31,668 nt of DNA from a virus. The notes under the pieces were generated by a model, which saw only the letters and a program-made list of their open reading frames with translations, was not told the DNA's origin and searched no databases. This document shows, one piece after another, positions 2,677-31,137 of this stretch. The stretch's first letter is position 1. The number at the start of each line of letters is the position of its first letter. The stretch spans positions 1 to 31,668 of IMG/VR virus record IMGVR_UViG_3300045930_000011. One strand, 5' to 3'. A program made the position numbers and the translations under genes.

Positions 2677-4416
2677 ATGATTAAATTTTTTCAGGCGCTC
2701 CTTAAACCCTTTCAGCGACGAAGCTCTCTCTCTAATCCTGACGGCTGGTTTATCAACATGGCGGGCGGTCAGCCGACATTCACGGGACGGCCCGTCACTG
2801 CCGCGACGGCGATGCAGTCGATCGCGGTTTATGCCTGCGTGAAGATTCTCGCGGAGTCGGTCGCGTCGTCGCCGCTCTTCGTCTACAAGCGCATCGGAGC
2901 AGGGAAGGAGAAGGCCCGCAACTTCTACCTTTACCCGGTGCTCCATGGTTCGCCGAATGATCAGCAGACCTCGTATGAGTTTAAGAGCCTGGTGATAGCT
3001 CATTGGGCGCTCAGGGGTAATCACTACTCAGAGAAGTTAATGGACCAGGGAGGTCGCGTCCGCGGGCTGTCTCCGCTCGATCCGGATCGCATGTCGATCA
3101 AGTGGGGTCCGGGCGGCGATCTGATTTACGAGTATCGCTTCCGGAACGGCGGGCAGAAGGAATTCACTCCTGACCAGATCTTCCACTTCCGCGGGCTGTC
3201 GACCGATGGCATATGCGGACTGAGTCCGATCGCTCAATTCCGGCAGGCCATCGGCGTCGCTCAGGCTCAAGAGGAATATGCCGGCCGAATGTATGGGAAC
3301 GGGATGCGCCCGAGCGGTGTCTTCGAGCATCCCGAAGTCATGTCCCAGGAAGCGCACGAGCGTCTTCAAGAGTCGATTAAGGAGCGATACGTCGGGCTCG
3401 AGAATGCTGGTAATCCGGTCATTCTTGAAGAGGGCATGAAGTGGCATTCGATCAGTATGACTGCTGAGGATGCTCAATTCCTGGAGAGCCGGAACTTCCA
3501 GGTCGCGGAGATCGCGCGGATCTTCCGCATCCCGCTCCATATGCTAAACGAGCTTACTCATGCGACCTTCAGCAATGTCGAGCACTTAGGGATCGACTTC
3601 GTCGTCCATACGCTTCGACCGATCCTCGTCTCCCTGGAGGAGAGTCTCGCCTTCCAGCTCTTAACACCGGCAGAGCGAGAAGACTATTCGATAGAGTTCC
3701 TGGTCGACGCACTGCTTCGGGGGGATACAGAGAGTAGATTCAAGGCATATTCGATAGCGAGAGTTAATGGATGGATGTCTGCGAACGAGATCCGAGAGAG
3801 GGAGAATATGAACCCGCTCCCTCCGGAAGTCGGCGACGTCTACCTGACGCCGGTCAATATGGCACCGGCTGATCAGCAGACGGACCAGGGCGACGGGAAG
3901 AAGCCGGCACCGCCCGAACCGAAGCCGAAGCGCTTCCTCGAGTTCGATCACTCCGGATACATTGTCGAGGGATCGCCGCTCCATTCGGCCCTGGACATTC
4001 TCCTCCGCGATGCCTTTCACCGGATGATCACGAAGGAGATCAAGGCCATCGACGCGAAGATCCGGAAGGTCGCGCAGGACGGATCCGTCGACGATATGCA
4101 AGCCTGGTTATTAGACTTCTATGCTGAGCAGAGGTCGTATTACCTGAAGACGGTCGGACCGACCGTCACCGCGATAAGCGATCTGGTAGGCGACGAATGC
4201 GAGCCGATAGACCTCGACTCATGGGCGGATGCATATATCACGAAGCATCGGAGAGCGATCGAGAGCGCGCTCCGCAGGGGAGACGGATCAGAGATACTCC
4301 GGGATTGGGCGGGGACAGCGATCCAGTGGAAGACCGGCGGGGATGCGCGCGAAGCGGTCCAGACCGCGAGACTCATGGTCAGGGAAAGGAGCAAGGACAA
4401 TGAACGAAAAAATTGA
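2677..4416 (+). CDS. Portal protein, HK97 type, with long C-terminal extension
   Basis: A 579-residue portal that forms the dodecameric DNA gate at one capsid vertex. The core (about residues 25-400) carries family features: TAATAMQSIAVYACVKILAE, a YEFKSLVIAHWALRGNHYS segment, and the clip/stem region EIARIFRIPLHML followed by LRPILVSLEESL. After a Pro-rich linker (about residues 395-415) comes a roughly 160-residue helical, charged extension not needed for the core fold. Similar extensions occur in some HK97-type portals, with unclear role. The gene follows terL after 11 bases, and its 3' end overlaps the protease gene by 17 bases. Confidence 0.94.
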   Translation: MIKFFQALLKPFQRRSSLSNPDGWFINMAGGQPTFTGRPVTAATAMQSIAVYACVKILAESVASSPLFVYKRIGAGKEKARNFYLYPVLHGSPNDQQTSYEFKSLVIAHWALRGNHYSEKLMDQGGRVRGLSPLDPDRMSIKWGPGGDLIYEYRFRNGGQKEFTPDQIFHFRGLSTDGICGLSPIAQFRQAIGVAQAQEEYAGRMYGNGMRPSGVFEHPEVMSQEAHERLQESIKERYVGLENAGNPVILEEGMKWHSISMTAEDAQFLESRNFQVAEIARIFRIPLHMLNELTHATFSNVEHLGIDFVVHTLRPILVSLEESLAFQLLTPAEREDYSIEFLVDALLRGDTESRFKAYSIARVNGWMSANEIRERENMNPLPPEVGDVYLTPVNMAPADQQTDQGDGKKPAPPEPKPKRFLEFDHSGYIVEGSPLHSALDILLRDAFHRMITKEIKAIDAKIRKVAQDGSVDDMQAWLLDFYAEQRSYYLKTVGPTVTAISDLVGDECEPIDLDSWADAYITKHRRAIESALRRGDGSEILRDWAGTAIQWKTGGDAREAVQTARLMVRERSKDNERKN

Positions 4417-5023
4417 GCGCCGCTACATGCCGGCGGCCGAGCTTCGAATCGAAGAGGTCGAAGAGAACGGGACGAAGAAGAAGAAGATCGCCGGATACGC
4501 TTCGGTGTTTAACTCCCCGAGCGTCGACCTGGGCGGCTTCCGCGAGATCGTCAAGCCTGGTGCCTTCGACCGCAACTTCGGACCGAACGGGCCGACGGCC
4601 GACGTCCGAGCCCTGGTCGATCACGATCCCAGTAAGATCCTCGGAAGGACGAAGTCGGGAACGCTGTCCCTGAGCGTCAGATCGAAGGGCCTTTATGTGG
4701 AGATCGATCCTCCAGACACTCAAGTCGCGCGAGATTTAATGAAAACGATCGAACGCGGTGACGTCGACGCGATGTCCTTCGGCTTCCGGACGCATGGCGA
4801 CAAGTGGGGAAAGAAGGACGGGGAGACGATTCGGGAGCTTACAGACGTTGAACTCTTCGACGTCTCGGCGGTGACATTCCCAGCTTACCCGGATACACAA
4901 GTCGCACTTAGATCACTTGATCTATTCCAGAAGGAAAATCCAGAAGATCCGGCACCGCAGGCACCAGAGCCAGGCGTCCAGGTTTCAGTCCGTCGTCGTC
5001 AGCTCGATCTCCTCGACGCTTGA
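4400..5023 (+). CDS. Prohead protease, HK97 (S78/U35) family
   Basis: A 207-residue serine protease that cleaves capsid scaffold (delta) domains during maturation. The family features are GYASVFNSPS near residues 32-41, FREIVKPGAF, catalytic His in LVDHDPSKILGRT (H75) and catalytic Ser in DAMSFGF (S126), then ELFDVSAVTFPAYP. I take the ATG at 4400, with AGGA/AAGGA upstream and 17 bases of overlap with the portal. The open frame continues upstream but only as an extra-frame shadow of the portal. The C-terminal 25 residues are Pro/Glu-rich and basic. A 220-base noncoding gap separates it from its capsid substrate gene. Confidence 0.95.
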   Translation: MNEKIERRYMPAAELRIEEVEENGTKKKKIAGYASVFNSPSVDLGGFREIVKPGAFDRNFGPNGPTADVRALVDHDPSKILGRTKSGTLSLSVRSKGLYVEIDPPDTQVARDLMKTIERGDVDAMSFGFRTHGDKWGKKDGETIRELTDVELFDVSAVTFPAYPDTQVALRSLDLFQKENPEDPAPQAPEPGVQVSVRRRQLDLLDA

Positions 5024-5141
5024 CACTCTGAAAAATGTCCGGTAATCTTCGGGTCATAAATTCGGCGACGCCGAGGTATCCGGAGCCAGAGTAGCTGCCC
5101 TGCCGAAAGCGTCAAACAACCCGCCCGACTAGCAGAGTTTT

Positions 5142-5195
5142 AGTCGCGAAGTTGCAAACAAACCGTTTATTCGGTATGTGCAACTCGCGACTTTT
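5142..5195 (+). terminator. Large hairpin upstream of the capsid gene, possible terminator or attenuator
   Basis: Arms AGTCGCGAAGTTGCA (5142-5156) and TGCAACTCGCGACT (5179-5192) pair over 14 base pairs with one bulged A. A smaller ACCG/CGGT stem lies in the loop (5162-5165 with 5172-5175). TTTT follows directly at 5192-5195. The rest of the 5024-5243 gap holds no convincing ORF; the longest ATG frame I found there is 19 codons. CGGTATG at 5172-5178 can alternatively pair with CATACCG at 5213-5219, and a second GCGACT at 5205-5210 could compete for the left arm. The element may end, attenuate or process the transcript between the low-copy protease and high-copy capsid genes (inference). Confidence 0.45.
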
Positions 5196-5243
5196 GATAT
5201 TTAAGCGACTGCCATACCGCACACCAAAATAAGGGGTGTACAG

Positions 5244-6530
5244 ATGGAAGGATCAGCGCAGGAATTACGACAGGAGCGGGCCCAGGTTTGCGAGCAGCTC
5301 CGCACGCTTAACGACACCGTCGAAGCGCGCGGCGACGGATACACGGGCGAAGAAGACGCGAATTATAAGAAGCTCTTCGCAAAGCAAGAAGAATTGAAGT
5401 CCGAGATCGAGAAGATCGAGACCCGGAAGCAGGCGGACGATCAGCGTAAGTCGGATCTCGCGGCTCTTACTGGCGAGATGGCGAAAGTTAATCCTCCGTC
5501 CGAGCGACTCGGTCCGAATGGTGGACAGAAGGCAGCGCTCGATCCTAACGAGTCCCGATCGGCGCGCGCTCGCAAGTCCGACGAATATCGCGACCAGTGG
5601 AGACACTGGCTATTGACGGGCGCCGGGCAGCCCGAGCTTGAGGAGCGGTCTTTCCAAGCCGACCTGGGAACGCAGGCCGGTTATCTGGTCATGCCGATGG
5701 AGACAGCCAATCAGCTCATTAAGTTTATCGACGATAACACCTACATTCGGCAGCTCGCGACGAAGTTCACGGTCGAGCGCGCGGTCTCCCTGGGCGCTCC
5801 TCAGTTAACGACCGATCCAGCCGATTCCGACTGGACGACAGAGCTGGCGACGGGCTCGGAAGATACGGCGATGGACGTCGGGCTCCGTGAGTTGATTCCT
5901 CACCCATGCGCGAAGCAGTTCAACATCTCGAACAAATTGCTCCGCATGGCAGCCATGAACGTCGAGCAATTCGTCCTCCAGCGTCTCGCCTATAAGTTGG
6001 CGATAACGCATGAGAAGGCATTCCTTCTCGGAAGCGGCGCTCAGCAACCGCTTGGAGTCTTCACGGCGTCAAGCAACGGCATCCCGACATCGCGCGACGT
6101 CTCGACCGGCAACTCGACGACAGAGCCCCAGTTCGACGGCTTGATAGCTTGCAAATACGCGATCAAGGACCAATACAGACCGCGGCTCCGCTGGTTATTC
6201 CATCGCAATTGCCTGGAACTTATCGCGAAGAAGAAAGACGGTAATGGCAACTACATCTGGCGGGAATCGGTCCGCGCAGGGGAGCCGGACAGCGTCCTCG
6301 GCATTCCAGTTCTGTCGTCTGAATACGTTCCGAACACATTCACGACCGGGCTGTATGTCGGAATTCTCGGAGACTTCTCCAACTACTGGATCGCCGATGC
6401 GCTGGACTTCCAAGTCCAGAGACTCGTCGAGCTAAACGCGAAGAAGAATCAGACTCTCTTCATAATCAGAGCGGAATCTGACGGCGCTCCCGTTCTTGCG
6501 GAAGCATTCGCCCGCGTCAAGCTGGCGTAA
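5244..6530 (+). CDS. Major capsid protein, HK97 fold
   Basis: A 428-residue HK97-type shell protein. Residues 1-80 form a charged coiled coil (ELRQERAQVCEQL, EELKSEIEKIETRK), the expected delta/scaffold domain removed by the protease, followed by a disordered linker (about 80-130). The mature shell domain starts near the QADLGTQAGYLVMP motif and shows the typical P-loop/A-domain features ISNKLLRMAAMNVEQFV, AFLLGSGAQQPLGVF, and DSVLGIPVLSSEYVP with GDFSNYWIADA. The start has AAGGGG about eight bases upstream. It sits in canonical order after portal and protease. Confidence 0.96.
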   Translation: MEGSAQELRQERAQVCEQLRTLNDTVEARGDGYTGEEDANYKKLFAKQEELKSEIEKIETRKQADDQRKSDLAALTGEMAKVNPPSERLGPNGGQKAALDPNESRSARARKSDEYRDQWRHWLLTGAGQPELEERSFQADLGTQAGYLVMPMETANQLIKFIDDNTYIRQLATKFTVERAVSLGAPQLTTDPADSDWTTELATGSEDTAMDVGLRELIPHPCAKQFNISNKLLRMAAMNVEQFVLQRLAYKLAITHEKAFLLGSGAQQPLGVFTASSNGIPTSRDVSTGNSTTEPQFDGLIACKYAIKDQYRPRLRWLFHRNCLELIAKKKDGNGNYIWRESVRAGEPDSVLGIPVLSSEYVPNTFTTGLYVGILGDFSNYWIADALDFQVQRLVELNAKKNQTLFIIRAESDGAPVLAEAFARVKLA

Positions 6531-22266: not shown

Positions 22267-23520
22267 ATGACGACAGCACCAGCAAGCGGATATAGCTCGA
22301 ACGCGAGCCGTACCAAAGGGCAGATGAAGCAGATCTTCGAGGACCTCGTCAGCTTGCATAAGGAGCAGGCAGGCGGCTCGCCGAAGAAGGCGAAGACGCT
22401 CGCCTCCGACACCTTCAACGCTGACAACGACTCGAGCTATTTTGTCCTGACCGGAGAAGGGAGCGTCGCGGACAACCTTGCCACCGTGACCGGGGGCGTC
22501 GACGGTCGCGAGCTGCGCGTCCGCTCAGCCGACCCAGCGCAGCTAATCACGCTGAAACACAATACCGGCGCGAATAAGATCAGGACACAAACCGGGAGCG
22601 ACATCCTTCTCGCCGACAAAGTCGTCATAACCATTCGCTTCGACGCAGGTCTCGGCGCCGGTGAATGGGAGGTCGTCGATATGTTCGGGATCGTCGGCGT
22701 GGCGGGCAGCACGACACAAGTCATGTTCAACGACGCTGGCGCGCTGGCTGGAGATGCCGGCATGGTGTACGACAAGACGACTGACAAATTAACGCTCGCC
22801 GGCGCTCTTAAATCGGTCACGCAAGTCGAAGACGTCAATTCTAATGAGGTCCTGAAATTTTCCAGCACGGCGAGCGCGGTCAATGAGATCACCGTCACTA
22901 ATAAAGCTACGGGAGCGGGTCCGACTCTGGAGCCAACCGGCGGCGATACTAATATCGATCTGATATTGAGGTCTAAAGGAACCGGATCAGTCACTCTCGC
23001 TGACTCGTCTGGCAACGAAGTCATTAAGACGGCAGCTACGGCGAGCGCAGTAAATGAGATCACCGTCACTAATAAGGCCACTGGCGCTAATCCAACTATT
23101 GAGCCAACGGGCAATGATACCAACATCGGCTTAAATCTCAAGAAGAAGGGCACAGGGACGGTTCAATATGAAGGGACCGAAATTAGGAAAATCGGCCCAG
23201 AATTCACAAGCTCAGACCAGACCATTACGAGCGCCGGCAGCCTGACCATCGCGCACGGACTGGGAGTCGTGCCGACGCATGTATACGCTGCGCTAGTATG
23301 TCAGACGGCAGAGGCGAACTACAGCGCCAACGACGTCGTCTTCTACCAGCAAGATGACAGCGCCGCGAGCCGCGGCTATACCTGCGTCGTGGACTCTACA
23401 AATTTGAATATACGCTTCGGCTCAGCCGGTAGTGCATTCAGTCTATTAAACAAGAATACGGGATCATCGGCAGCGCTAACCAACGGTAACTGGAAGATCC
23501 GCTTCTATGCGAACCGCTAG
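22267..23520 (+). CDS. Tail fibre-like protein 2, paralogous anchor
   Basis: A 417-residue protein. Its first 140 residues closely mirror fibre 1 (MKQIFEDLVSLHKEQAGG, LATVTGGVDG, SADPAQLITLKHNTGANK, LGAGEWE), showing gene duplication. The middle holds two tandem 57-residue beta repeats (residues 193-249 and 250-306). The C-terminus is a compact beta domain (SLTIAHGLGVVPTHVYAALV) unrelated to fibre 1. It starts three bases after fibre 1. The architecture suggests a shared virion-binding module with two different distal domains. Confidence 0.77.
   Translation: MTTAPASGYSSNASRTKGQMKQIFEDLVSLHKEQAGGSPKKAKTLASDTFNADNDSSYFVLTGEGSVADNLATVTGGVDGRELRVRSADPAQLITLKHNTGANKIRTQTGSDILLADKVVITIRFDAGLGAGEWEVVDMFGIVGVAGSTTQVMFNDAGALAGDAGMVYDKTTDKLTLAGALKSVTQVEDVNSNEVLKFSSTASAVNEITVTNKATGAGPTLEPTGGDTNIDLILRSKGTGSVTLADSSGNEVIKTAATASAVNEITVTNKATGANPTIEPTGNDTNIGLNLKKKGTGTVQYEGTEIRKIGPEFTSSDQTITSAGSLTIAHGLGVVPTHVYAALVCQTAEANYSANDVVFYQQDDSAASRGYTCVVDSTNLNIRFGSAGSAFSLLNKNTGSSAALTNGNWKIRFYANR
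22843..23184 (+). repeat. Two tandem 171-bp coding repeats in fibre 2
   Basis: Units at 22843-23013 and 23014-23184 are each 57 codons. The best match is around SAVNEITVTNKATGA, nearly identical in DNA (GAGATCACCGTCACTAATAA at both). The flanks NEV, EPTG-DTNI and KGTG also repeat. This is a protein-level beta-repeat within the fibre shaft, not a mobile element. Confidence 0.85.
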
Positions 23521-26339: not shown

Positions 26340-26708
26340 TCATTTGCTGTATTGATTCCTTTTCGGCTGCTTCCTTTTCCCCGTCTTCCAGTGGTGTCGC
26401 GAGTGGCAACTTGCGCAAAGCGTTTGGAGATTGGACAGGTTGCCGTTTGTGTAATCTCCATCCATGTGATGTACATGCAGCTTCTCGACAGCACCGCAAT
26501 GCTCGCATGCGGGTCCTCGGTAGTGCTGTGCGCGATGCTTGTGTGCAGAATACGAGGCGTCAGGCTTGCGCCTTGCAAAGCGTGAGCACTTGTCTGAACA
26601 AAAGCGACGACGCTTATAAAAATACGGCACCAACTTCCGGCGGGGTATTAGTTCGCCGCAAGATTCGCAGTAGCGCGGAGACACAGGCTGGAGCGGCCTC
26701 TGCTTCAT
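26340..26708 (-). CDS. HNH endonuclease
   Basis: A 122-residue nuclease. The HNH core is CEHCGAVEKLHVHHMDGDYTNG followed by NLSNLQTLCASCHSRHH, giving H80-H81, N93 and H102 with structural CXXC pairs at C68/C71 and C98/C101. An N-terminal second zinc-like cluster (CESC ... CSDKC) precedes it. ATG 26708 overlaps the upstream TGA (ATGA); an ATG 30 bases upstream would enter the neighbour. HNH proteins serve in phage packaging, homing or DNA metabolism. Being in the replication operon, not next to terminase, it leaves the role open. Confidence 0.85.
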   Translation of the reverse strand: MKQRPLQPVSPRYCESCGELIPRRKLVPYFYKRRRFCSDKCSRFARRKPDASYSAHKHRAQHYRGPACEHCGAVEKLHVHHMDGDYTNGNLSNLQTLCASCHSRHHWKTGKRKQPKRNQYSK

Positions 26709-26899
26709 GGCTTTCTCCAGCCATTTGCGTCTTTGCACGTCGCGAAGTGCGAGACGTGCCGCTTGTGATCGAAGTGCAAGTCGTCGCCAAGTTCTACCGT
26801 CTCGGCGTTAACGGGAACGTTCTTGCCCGTGCTGCTCTTCATCCACAAAATTTGATACCCGCAACTGCGGCATTGTGACGGCGTTAATTTTTCGGTCAT
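26705..26899 (-). CDS. Small zinc-ribbon-like protein
   Basis: A 64-residue protein with CRSCGYQILWM near the N-terminus (C10, C13) and H51/C55 near the C-terminus. It follows the pattern of small phage proteins that read C..C....W....GK..PV....H...C. GAGGAGGGGAG before the ATG is one of the strongest ribosome sites in the operon. ATG 26899 overlaps the upstream stop. Function unknown; metal binding is inferred from spacing. Confidence 0.62.
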   Translation of the reverse strand: MTEKLTPSQCRSCGYQILWMKSSTGKNVPVNAETVELGDDLHFDHKRHVSHFATCKDANGWRKP

Positions 26900-27099
26900 C
26901 TCCCCTCCTCTGCAAACAGCGCATTGCAAGCGCCGTTAAGCGCGAACCCCGGCGCCTTCTCCGAGCGCCCTTGATACTTCCGGTCAATGACGCAGTACCA
27001 GCGCGTCAACGATTCCTTGAACTCGACGGAGTGACCGCGCATTCGAAGGAATGCCACCGTCTCGCGGTGCGAGAGGCTCAGCTCCTTTGGGTCGCTCAT
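26896..27099 (-). CDS. Small basic hypothetical protein
   Basis: A 67-residue protein coupled at both ends by ATGA overlaps, directly after the helicase-methyltransferase gene. LSLSHRETVAFLRMRGHSVEF and LTRWYCVIDRKYQG suggest a helix plus small beta segment. No motif identifies it. Its position next to the fusion gene makes a shared DNA-processing role possible, without direct evidence. Confidence 0.5.
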   Translation of the reverse strand: MSDPKELSLSHRETVAFLRMRGHSVEFKESLTRWYCVIDRKYQGRSEKAPGFALNGACNALFAEEGR

Positions 27100-29324
27100 G
27101 CGCTCTCACCTTCGCCCTCGGCTACAGGGAAGATACTCAACTGCCCGCCGCTCTCGGCGGCTCGCTGAAGGTGCCCGCATGCCACCTTCCAGTAACTGTC
27201 CTTCAGTTCGATTCCGACGAACTGACGCCCCTCGCGCAGAGCGACATATCCTTCCGAGCCGATGCCAGCGAACGGAGATAACACGAGGTCCTTGGGATTC
27301 GTCCAGAGCTTCAGAGCCCGCTCAATCACTCCAAGCTGTAACGGGCAGATATGCTTTTCGTCGTCATCGTCGCGCGCCTCTCGGAATTCGAGCGTATCCG
27401 ATGCGTTGATGTCGAACCAGACAGGCGACGCGTATCGCTGCCAGAGTGCCACGGGAAAGGTCTCATTCGTATGTGTAATGCGATCTGGATTGTCACCGGG
27501 CGCCCGCATCGTGACCAGGTAATCTGGTATCCCCTGCCGACACATAGCGCTGTCCTTCTTTAGCTGCTTGTGTAGCAAACCGAGCGCCTTCGTGCGATGG
27601 ACTGCCGTAACTGGATCTTTCCAGATGACCACCTCCGAGTGATATATCCAGCCAGCGGCCATAAACATCTGGATCAGGAGCCCCCGGAAGTCCGTCAAGC
27701 CTATGACGCCGTCTCGCATCTTAGAGGTTGGCAGATTCATGCAATGGAACGACAGTAGCCGTCCCGGCTTCGTCACGCGCAGCAATTCCGGGACCAGGAA
27801 CTTGAAATGTTCGTAGAATTCGCTATGCGTGCGCGCATTCCCCATATCGCGCTCTGAATTCGAGTAAGCATACAGATTCGCGAATGGTGGCGAAAAAATG
27901 GTGTAGTCAATCGAGTGGCTTGGTATCGTCTGGATGACCTCAACGCAGTCGCCTAGATTCATCGTCCAGCCGCGCCCGGTCGCCGTCCTCTCTTCATACG
28001 CGCAGTCATCCCGCTGGGCGCCTGACACGTTCTCTATCATGTTTTCTTTCATGCTCTCCACCATTGCCGCTGCCATGCGCTTCGCGTCCTCCTCTTTCCG
28101 TTCTATGTTCCTGAGTACCGCGCGCTCCGTGTCACTGATAACGACGTAGCAGTTAACCGGCTTCGTCTGCCCGAAGCGCCAGCATCGCCGCAAAGCTTGA
28201 TAGAACTGCTCGTAAGAATCCGAGAGTCCGAAGAAGACGACGTTATTGCAGTGCTGCCAATTCATGCCCCACCCGCAGATCGACGGCTTACTTATCATGC
28301 GCTTGAACTCGCCGGCAGCGAATCCGAGCATCCGACCTTTCTTATCTTCAAGAGAATCAGAGCCAGCTATTTGAACGGCATCCGGGAGCAACTCCTCAAT
28401 GAGATCGCCCTCGGCGTTAAGATTGCACCAAATAAGCCACGGCTCTTGGCTCTTCTTCACGAGATCGGCGACCGCCTGGGCGCGTAATTCAATGGTAGCC
28501 TTACGTGCGTCCCGACGTTCCGCGAGTGTCTGCGCCTCTAGATTGAACAGGAGTCCCCGCTCATGCGCTGCCTCATTGTCGGACTCAACGACAATATGCT
28601 TGATGCGTAGGTCCGGCAGTATGAAGTTCTCGTCAGAGAATCCGAGATCGCTCGGCTTTTGAATCATCACCGCCCATGATGCGACCCACTTCCAGAAGGC
28701 TCCGGCGCCGTGTCCTTTGAGCGCCCATTGCTGCGTCTCGCCTCCGTCATGCACGAAGAAGGTAGCTAACATCTCGGTTCGAGTCATGATGCCCAAGAAC
28801 TCGGCATGATTCCCTAATTCCATATAGTCATTTGGCGCCGGCGTAGCGGTGCAAGCGAGCCGGTATGGCGTCTCCTGGAAGGCTTCAATTAGTCGCGTGC
28901 GCGTCTTTCCGTCGAATGCTTTCAATATGCTGGATTCGTCCAGCACGACGCCGGCGAAGTCAGCGGGATTGAAGTGCTCGAGCATCTCGTAATTAGTGAT
29001 GACTATCCGGTCCGGAGCATGTCCGGTCCGGTCATACACGAGCGGAATGTCGAAGCGGGCGCCCTCCATCACGGTCTGCTCTGCGACCGCAAGCGGAGCG
29101 AGGATCAGCACGCGCCCCAGTATATGGCGCGCCCATTCCAATTGCATAAGCGTCTTACCCATGCCACAGTCGGCGAAGATAGCAGCGCGTCCGCGCCTTA
29201 ACGCCCATCGGACGATTACGTTCTGGAAATCAAACAGTTGGGATTGCAGAGCTTCCGCTGGCTCAATGCCGGTCGGAGGCTGGACGATAGCTTTACCCGC
29301 TAGGAAGTCTTGATATGTTCTCAC
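27096..29324 (-). CDS. SF2 helicase fused to a DNA methyltransferase
   Basis: A 742-residue two-domain protein. Residues about 25-400 are an SF2 (SNF2-like) helicase: Walker A ADCGMGKT (51-58), motif II LDESS (128-132), motif III TATP (159-162), and motif VI QALRRCWRFGQ (376-386). Residues about 455-720 are an amino-methyltransferase with motif order IV then I: catalytic SPPF (478-481), and AdoMet loop FAGIGS (685-690) followed by VGIEL. The SPP form suggests N4-cytosine or N6-adenine methylation; the base and site cannot be read. The start is a GTG overlapping the upstream TGA (GTGA). No nuclease domain is visible. A likely role is protective or regulatory modification coupled to translocation or unwinding. 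Confidence 0.88.
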   Translation of the reverse strand: MRTYQDFLAGKAIVQPPTGIEPAEALQSQLFDFQNVIVRWALRRGRAAIFADCGMGKTLMQLEWARHILGRVLILAPLAVAEQTVMEGARFDIPLVYDRTGHAPDRIVITNYEMLEHFNPADFAGVVLDESSILKAFDGKTRTRLIEAFQETPYRLACTATPAPNDYMELGNHAEFLGIMTRTEMLATFFVHDGGETQQWALKGHGAGAFWKWVASWAVMIQKPSDLGFSDENFILPDLRIKHIVVESDNEAAHERGLLFNLEAQTLAERRDARKATIELRAQAVADLVKKSQEPWLIWCNLNAEGDLIEELLPDAVQIAGSDSLEDKKGRMLGFAAGEFKRMISKPSICGWGMNWQHCNNVVFFGLSDSYEQFYQALRRCWRFGQTKPVNCYVVISDTERAVLRNIERKEEDAKRMAAAMVESMKENMIENVSGAQRDDCAYEERTATGRGWTMNLGDCVEVIQTIPSHSIDYTIFSPPFANLYAYSNSERDMGNARTHSEFYEHFKFLVPELLRVTKPGRLLSFHCMNLPTSKMRDGVIGLTDFRGLLIQMFMAAGWIYHSEVVIWKDPVTAVHRTKALGLLHKQLKKDSAMCRQGIPDYLVTMRAPGDNPDRITHTNETFPVALWQRYASPVWFDINASDTLEFREARDDDDEKHICPLQLGVIERALKLWTNPKDLVLSPFAGIGSEGYVALREGRQFVGIELKDSYWKVACGHLQRAAESGGQLSIFPVAEGEGESA

Positions 29325-29739: not shown

Positions 29740-31137
29740 CTAGTCTTCTGGTGCATATCCGCTCTCGCCGCGCTTATATTTGCTTGGCTTCGCGGGCTCG
29801 GCCGGTGGCCGAAAGTTGTATTCGAGATCGAAGAATCCCGCATACTCTGGAACGAACTTTATGTAGGCCGTGTCTTTCGGACCGTTCCGCTGCTTCAAGA
29901 TGATCGCCTCGGCGACTTCCTTCGGCCAGGTCTCGTCATACTCCGCATGCTGATGGAGACCGATCACGAGGTCGGCGTCTTCTTCGATCGCGCCGGACTC
30001 CTTCAGGTCGAACAAAGTCGGGCGCTTATTCGGCCGCCTGCCGGTCTCTCTATTGAGCTGCGAAAGGGCGACGACTGGAACCCCCCAGCGCTTCGCGCAG
30101 CGCTTAAGCGCTTTCGTACATTCCGACAAGAACTCGTGCCGTTTTTGTGTCTCTGGTCCGCTCATCAATTGCAAGTAGTCGACGAAGACCGCGGCTACCT
30201 TCTTCCCCTGCGCGAAGAGCTTATCGACAGCCGCCTCGATGCGAGCGACCGACATGCCACTATCGTCGAAGATATCGATCGGAAGTCGCGAGAACTTGTC
30301 CGTCGTCACGACCAGGGCGTCCGCCTCTTCCTTCGTCAACTTCCCGGACCGGAGCGAATTCCCGTTGATACGTCCTATGCGGGCCATGAATCGCTCGCCG
30401 ATCTCCCGGCTCGTCATCTCCAAACTAAAGAACGCGACGCGCTGGCGTAGCACGCTTGCTATATGCTCCGCCACTCCGACCGCGAAGCCGGTCTTCCCGA
30501 CGCTCGGTCTCGCCGCGATAATGATCAAGTTCCCTGGATGGAATCCATACGTCAAGGATTGCACCGCCCCCAGCCCGATCGGGATGCCGCTCGGACCTTT
30601 CTCCGTGCGGTCGAGAATATCGTTAAACACTGAATGAGCTAACTCCTCAGTGGAGAGATGCCCATCGCCGAGCGCACGCTTCGCGAGTTCCTGGAGCTTC
30701 ATCCCGGCAATGGTCAGCACCTCTTCGGAGCCGTCCGCTTCGAGTTCGCCCTGGTGTAACTCTTTCCCGAGCGTCCGGATTCCGCGACGGACAGCCATCT
30801 CCTTGATCTCTCTCGCATAAAACGGGATCAGGGACGGCGGTCCGCCAACGGTGCAAAGTTCGGTCAGATACGCGCGACCGCCGACAAGATCCAATTGCTC
30901 CGCGCCGCGTAAATACTGCGAGACTGTGCTCGGATGGATCGGGTCGTCAACTGATCGAAGGTCTATCATCGCTTGATAAATGAGTCCGTGAGTCTTCCGA
31001 TAAAAGTCGCTAATTTCCAAGTCGCCGGCAATTGCCGACAGCGCGTCCGGGTCTGTAAATAGGGCGCCTAAGAGCAACTGCTCGCAGTCCGTCGCCTCTG
31101 GTGGCAGGGGTTGGCCGTTCCCGTTGTCGTCTGACAC
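29740..31137 (-). CDS. dnaB: Replicative DNA helicase, DnaB-like
   Basis: A 465-residue hexameric helicase that unwinds the replication fork and probably recruits host primase and polymerase, since neither is encoded here. The N-terminal primase-interaction domain (about 12-120: CEQLLLGALFTDPDAL) is followed by the RecA-like core: Walker A ARPSVGKT (209-216), catalytic E240 in SLEM, Walker B VFVDYLQLM (D320), motif 3 QLNRE (360-364) and motif 4 region DLKESGAIEEDADLV. The start is GTG 31137, with AAGGA about ten bases upstream. It is the largest undisputed replication gene in the window. Confidence 0.95.
   Translation of the reverse strand: MSDDNGNGQPLPPEATDCEQLLLGALFTDPDALSAIAGDLEISDFYRKTHGLIYQAMIDLRSVDDPIHPSTVSQYLRGAEQLDLVGGRAYLTELCTVGGPPSLIPFYAREIKEMAVRRGIRTLGKELHQGELEADGSEEVLTIAGMKLQELAKRALGDGHLSTEELAHSVFNDILDRTEKGPSGIPIGLGAVQSLTYGFHPGNLIIIAARPSVGKTGFAVGVAEHIASVLRQRVAFFSLEMTSREIGERFMARIGRINGNSLRSGKLTKEEADALVVTTDKFSRLPIDIFDDSGMSVARIEAAVDKLFAQGKKVAAVFVDYLQLMSGPETQKRHEFLSECTKALKRCAKRWGVPVVALSQLNRETGRRPNKRPTLFDLKESGAIEEDADLVIGLHQHAEYDETWPKEVAEAIILKQRNGPKDTAYIKFVPEYAGFFDLEYNFRPPAEPAKPSKYKRGESGYAPED

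Follow-up and report, generated by a model that had tools for sequence, protein, structure and literature searches.

A phage-encoded fusion of a predicted SNF2-type motor and an amino-methyltransferase: near-obligate pairing of the two parts among its relatives

The window, the whole stretch of 31,668 bases of virus DNA analyzed here, encodes a single chain of 742 residues, in which a motor of predicted SNF2 type is followed by a beta-class amino-methyltransferase (Table 1). The two domains carry intact catalytic motifs, the chain is without a nuclease domain, and the pairing of motor and methylase is near-obligate among the relatives of this protein. On the whole evidence, we consider it probable (about 0.6) that the protein is a nuclease-free DNA modification machine of the phage, composed of an SNF2 translocase and a methylase and expressed from a replication operon, and that the methylation shields phage DNA from restriction.

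Table 1. Positions of the fusion gene, its two domains and the neighboring genes within the window
Feature	Position	Strand	Basis
Fusion of predicted SNF2 translocase and beta-class amino-DNA-methyltransferase, 742 aa, GTG start	27096..29324	-	Pfam, phrog_16, AlphaFold model
SNF2-type motor (by predicted fold), residues 22-430	28035..29261	-	Motifs in 100 relatives; PDB fold matches INO80/ISW1/SNF2h, Z about 29-32
Beta-class methyltransferase, residues 457-722	27159..27956	-	PF01555; alignment to M.PvuII SPPF and TTHA0409; fold match 2zie, Z 26.4
Ribbon-helix-helix protein (CopG family), 70 aa	29512..29724	-	PF01402, E 1.9e-9; overlaps the next gene by 4 bases
Small protein with hydrophobic N-terminus, 64 aa	29321..29515	-	GTGA overlap with fusion; no family match
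Small protein, function not assigned, 67 aa	26896..27099	-	ATGA overlap with fusion; no family match
Zinc-ribbon-like protein, 64 aa	26705..26899	-	phrog_5984 (matched with a longer 74-aa ORF); ATGA overlaps on both sides
HNH endonuclease with N-terminal cysteine-rich, zinc-finger-like part, 122 aa	26340..26708	-	PF01844, phrog_1271; ATGA overlap; last gene of the run
DnaB-like replicative helicase (replication module)	29740..31137	-	PF03796, E 5.9e-74; just upstream of the run

The 742-residue open reading frame is real and complete. In the motor half, the motifs of Walker A (DCGMGKT, residues 52-58), LDESS (128-132), TATP (159-162) and QALRRCWRFGQ (376-386) were identified, while the methylase half shows the motif order characteristic of the beta class, with motif IV (SPPF, 478-481) ahead of motif I (SPFAGIGS, 683-690). 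The Pfam matches were N6_N4_Mtase at residues 472-714 (PF01555, 53.2 bits against a cut-off of 26.7), Helicase_C at 284-385; SNF2-rel was matched as well, at 103-178, but below its curated cut-off. The profile of phrog_16 ('DNA helicase') was aligned through its positions 270-928 of 986 with residues 27-738 of the fusion (E 2e-70). The presence of a motor and an amino-methyltransferase in one chain, as claimed in a preliminary description of this DNA, is thus borne out by the SF2/SNF2 motifs, Pfam and phrog_16.

The AlphaFold2 model of the fusion, built with 50 aligned relatives, reached a mean pLDDT of 85.9 and a pTM of 0.78. The linker between the two halves is poorly conserved, and residues 435-440 within it were modeled with low confidence. 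The best PDB matches of the first 430 residues or so were INO80 (Z 32.4 over 368 residues, 3.1 A), ISW1 (Z 31.4) and SNF2h (Z 29.4), and that of the C-terminal part was TTHA0409 (2zie; Z 26.4 over 222 residues, 2.3 A). By its predicted fold, the motor would be an SNF2-type translocase and not a generic helicase; the 'complete SF2 helicase motor' of the preliminary description therefore keeps its SF2 motifs but not the designation as a helicase (INO80, Z 32). Since SNF2 proteins generally move on double-stranded DNA without strand separation (PMC5512222), calling this protein a 'helicase' is probably incorrect. No nuclease domain was matched by family searches within the 742 residues, of which about 20 precede the motor, and the nuclease domain found in the motor subunit or chain of type III and type ISP systems is absent from the fusion. 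The matches from PADLOC and NCBIfam were to type II methyltransferases in general and, weakly, to ZorD/DpdE for the motor, and no defence system was among them.

Relatives of the fusion are widespread. With tblastn, 805 phage records were matched, with 80% or more of the length covered in 305, and the hosts of these phages include Synechococcus, Flavobacterium, Mycobacterium, Gordonia, Arthrobacter, Pseudomonas and Alteromonas; one matching virus is assigned to Methanosarcinales. In IMG/VR, 264 relatives were detected, of which the closest has 64% identity; bacterial genome contigs contributed 20 further relatives, and 39 plasmid records were matched (8 over at least 80%). Full-length relatives with identity of up to 64% exclude the fusion being a product of chance or an artefact. 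Some relatives have been annotated, as 'DNA helicase/methylase' in mycobacteriophages and as 'DNA methylase' in Synechococcus phage S-CBS3. With hundreds of phage relatives, some of them annotated, the fusion therefore belongs to a known family: it is one more well-formed example from a family that is widespread and annotated, though apparently uncharacterised, and is not something new. Outside the fusion, no relative of the genome at the nucleotide level was found among phage records. The coupling of SNF2 motor and methylase in phages has already been noted (PMC5512222). In the open-access literature searched, no family member was found to have been assayed for methylation, ATPase activity or anti-restriction, and the open-licence literature yielded no tested phage helicase-methyltransferase or phage methylome with the fusion gene.

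For the analysis of pairing, each half alone was used as the query in viral contigs, with query patterns taken from the window; the analysis covers relatives of roughly 42% identity or more, and the two sets of loci thus obtained share contigs. Methylase was present in 79 of the 80 motor-anchored loci, the remaining one being cut off at a contig end. Motor was present in all 79 methylase-anchored loci, upstream in 67 and downstream, that is, in reversed gene order, in 12. A gap of 300 bases or more separated the two in 7 of these 79 loci (6 upstream and 1 downstream cases). The partner was present in all testable loci, whether the two parts were fused, split, interrupted or reversed in order. 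Of the 100 sequences that were aligned, 80 are fused and 20 split; in the FastTree tree of these sequences, at least 11 changes between the fused and split states are required, 9 being forced by well-supported branches. Reversed order was also seen in an annotated genome, that of Alteromonas phage XX1924.

Several individual loci deserve description. The relatives with methylase first and motor second are L211, L215, L216, L224, L228, L229, L231, L233, L234, L235, L252 and L258. In a plasmid of Rhodoplanes serenus (L117, positions 2992-6180), a cytosine methyltransferase gene is located between the motor and amino-methyltransferase genes, all overlapping. One sequence counted as split (L082) is interrupted at residues 386/390, and because this break falls within the motor, the split probably reflects faulty sequencing or a defective gene.

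Based on the alignment with known enzymes, we can also predict the chemistry of the methylase. The SPPF of the fusion is identical to motif IV of M.PvuII (cytosine-N4), TTHA0409 carries SPPY at this position, and the adenine enzymes CcrMI and MboIIA carry DPPY. The identity with M.PvuII makes N4-methylcytosine the likely, though not proven, product of the fusion; motif IV does not settle m4C versus m6A, because type III m4C enzymes carry DPPY (PMC8259958). The catalytic residues, on whose presence in relatives the preliminary description had made its proposal depend, are intact in almost all of the 100 relatives, including Walker A, LDESS, TATP, QxxRRxxRFGQ, SPPF and F(A/T/G)GIGS. In four relatives (L106, L112, L116 and L092), SPPF is replaced by SIPF, and three of the four make up a long-branch clade (Violac, Phrank15 and BR197a).

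In beta-class enzymes, target recognition is assigned to the segment that follows motif VIII and comes before the C-terminal motifs; in the fusion this segment comprises residues 572-655, presumably its recognition region. In every distance bin of the 100 sequences, this segment and the catalytic parts diverged at similar rates, with a ratio of 0.90-1.14. In restriction systems the recognition region is usually the fastest-varying part, a generality against which no control set was compared. Since this putative recognition region shows the same degree of conservation as the catalytic parts, it is plausible that the target of the methylase is fixed, short or relaxed, and target specificity may be similar across the family.

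The fusion gene is a member of a run of genes connected by overlaps of exactly 4 bases, ATGA between the ribbon-helix-helix and 64-aa genes, GTGA between the 64-aa and fusion genes and ATGA between the fusion and 67-aa genes. The overlaps reported earlier for the fusion and its two small neighbors are exact, but the chain, then counted as four genes, extends beyond the 67-aa gene by further ATGA overlaps, through the zinc-ribbon-like gene (ATG at 26899) and into the HNH gene (ATG at 26708). A nuclease gene is therefore located in the same coupled run as the fusion. The earlier statement that no nuclease or restriction partner was visible holds within the chain, but it overlooked this HNH gene, for which a 132-aa version of the ORF matched PF01844 (E 2.6e-5) and phrog_1271 (E 1.1e-16). 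The DnaB-like gene is separated by 15 bases from the ribbon-helix-helix gene. The plus strand of the contig carries genes for terminase, portal, protease, capsid, tape measure and tail fibre. In the tail gene region, two direct repeats of 91 bases, 80% identical and with 171-base spacing (22867-23128), are located inside an ORF of 417 aa (22267-23520).

The small genes of this run are not shared. In about 100 related loci, no relatives were found of the ribbon-helix-helix, 64-aa, 67-aa, zinc-ribbon or 71-aa proteins of the window, and a separate pattern scan of IMG/VR for the 67-aa protein was also empty. The proposal that the four genes form a unit with a conserved neighborhood is ruled out by the lack of relatives of the ribbon-helix-helix, 64-aa and 67-aa proteins in these loci. 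The gene group had been described as one not recognised from earlier descriptions, which is correct for the surrounding small genes but not for the protein itself, with its hundreds of annotated relatives. The commonest cluster of neighbors, detected in 22 of 100 loci, is a protein of about 467 aa and contains DnaB-type helicases such as that of L007. The neighbors of annotated relatives are genes for SSB, RecA, Cas4, RdgC or sliding clamp.

For the nuclease-free modification machine, we propose the following mode of action. The fusion would be made alongside phage replication proteins, from the replication (early) operon. The SNF2 motor would use ATP and move on double-stranded phage DNA, as SNF2 proteins do, and this movement may place or activate the attached methylase. 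The methylase would then modify cytosines, most likely to N4-methylcytosine, and the methylated phage DNA would escape cutting by host restriction enzymes (counter-restriction). The gene context lends support, with DnaB adjoining the run and SSB, RecA, Cas4, RdgC or sliding clamp near relatives, and there is a precedent in DarB of P1, which combines a methylase with an SNF2 motor and shields DNA against type I restriction (PMC5512222). A role in DNA modification or protection, as put forward in the preliminary description, is supported as likely. The unbroken pairing, together with the finding that methylation by two type III m4C systems needed both subunits, Mod and Res (PMC8259958), suggests by analogy that the motor may be required for methylation. 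In a stronger form, which we advance only tentatively, the protein would be an obligate two-part machine, with the motor needed for methylating a fixed, short or relaxed target; protection would be broad, ATP-driven and untied to the specificity of host restriction, and selection would have kept the pair together across repeated fission, insertion and order reversal.

The conserved recognition region speaks against counter-restriction in one respect, for it also fits a fixed regulatory target. The methylase could accordingly be imagined as a Dam-like enzyme marking phage DNA for control of replication, repair or packaging, with the motor coupling it to newly replicated DNA. Specificity that tracks host restriction enzymes would be expected to make the recognition region less conserved, an expectation for which there is no control set, while in fact, among phages whose hosts differ greatly, the region and the catalytic parts are conserved to a similar degree; the location of the fusion in replication modules, beside DnaB, SSB, RecA, clamp or Cas4 genes, points in the same direction. 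There is, however, no conserved replication partner, DnaB-type genes being near just about a fifth of loci, and the gene is dispensable among close relatives, the DNA methylase being present in S-LBS1 and S-CBS3 but absent from S-CBS1 (PMC6157547). We regard the Dam-like role as unlikely, although less so than the two readings that follow. Independent action of the two parts, the motor serving for instance as a recombination or remodelling ATPase and being joined to the methylase for co-expression only, is difficult to reconcile with the observation that no family locus with enough flanking sequence misses the partner, even after fission, insertion or order inversion. Many phages do have SNF2 motors without the methylase of this family, seen as short, partial matches in phages of Escherichia and Salmonella, and the split forms indicate that fusion is not needed, but the probability of this explanation appears low.

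Least probable of all, in our estimate, is that the fusion represents the modification half of a phage-carried system resembling restriction-modification, in which HNH cuts competing phages or host DNA. This reading starts from the HNH gene in the ATGA-linked run and from a count in 40 long records, in which 10 of 16 HNH matches were located within 3.5 kb of the fusion against 2.6 expected for uniform placement, a control that ignores the clustering of HNH genes in early regions. Phage genomes in general often carry HNH genes, and any HNH match was detected in just 11 of the 40 records. Near relatives, HNH genes are placed upstream in some cases and downstream in others, and they encode mostly dissimilar proteins, which are not orthologous to the HNH of the window, so that HNH as a dedicated restriction partner is unsupported. 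DnaB was also tried as a control anchor for HNH proximity, and no relatives of it were found.

The pair of motor and methylase is carried by hundreds of phages across bacterial hosts, and by a virus assigned to Methanosarcinales. Since the two were never seen apart in the family, even when split or reversed, a clear prediction follows, that methylation should depend on the motor, and it can be put to a culturable phage of Synechococcus, Gordonia or Mycobacterium carrying the pair. The copy in the window itself adds little beyond one further member of the family, and the coupling result raises its interest slightly.

Among known systems, P1 DarB and the 'DNA methylase-helicase dyad' of polyvalent proteins, for which an anti-restriction role has been proposed or shown, likewise combine an SNF2 ATPase and an amino-methyltransferase in one phage chain (PMC5512222). 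Proteins of the DarB type, however, carry a gamma-class NPP(Y/F) methylase N-terminal to the motor and an LPD36 domain, and are virion proteins (PMC5512222), whereas in the fusion of 742 aa the motor comes first, the C-terminal methylase is of the beta class with SPPF and the gene belongs to a replication operon. As neither the domain order nor the methylase class that defines DarB was found, the fusion may at most work like DarB and would not be classified as one. In type III restriction-modification (Mod and Res), an SF2 motor also works with a beta-class amino-methyltransferase (PMC8259958), but the fusion is without the PD-(D/E)XK nuclease, its motif IV is SPPF and not DPPY, and its motor is of predicted SNF2 type. 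M.PvuII and TTHA0409 (2zie) share with the fusion the beta-class fold and motif order, and M.PvuII also SPPF, but they are stand-alone methylases with no motor. The phage helicase-methylase family of phrog_16 agrees with the fusion in architecture and motifs, the proteins of S-CBS3 and vir525 being 56-57% identical to it along nearly the whole chain, and differs in nothing important, just in the flanking small genes.
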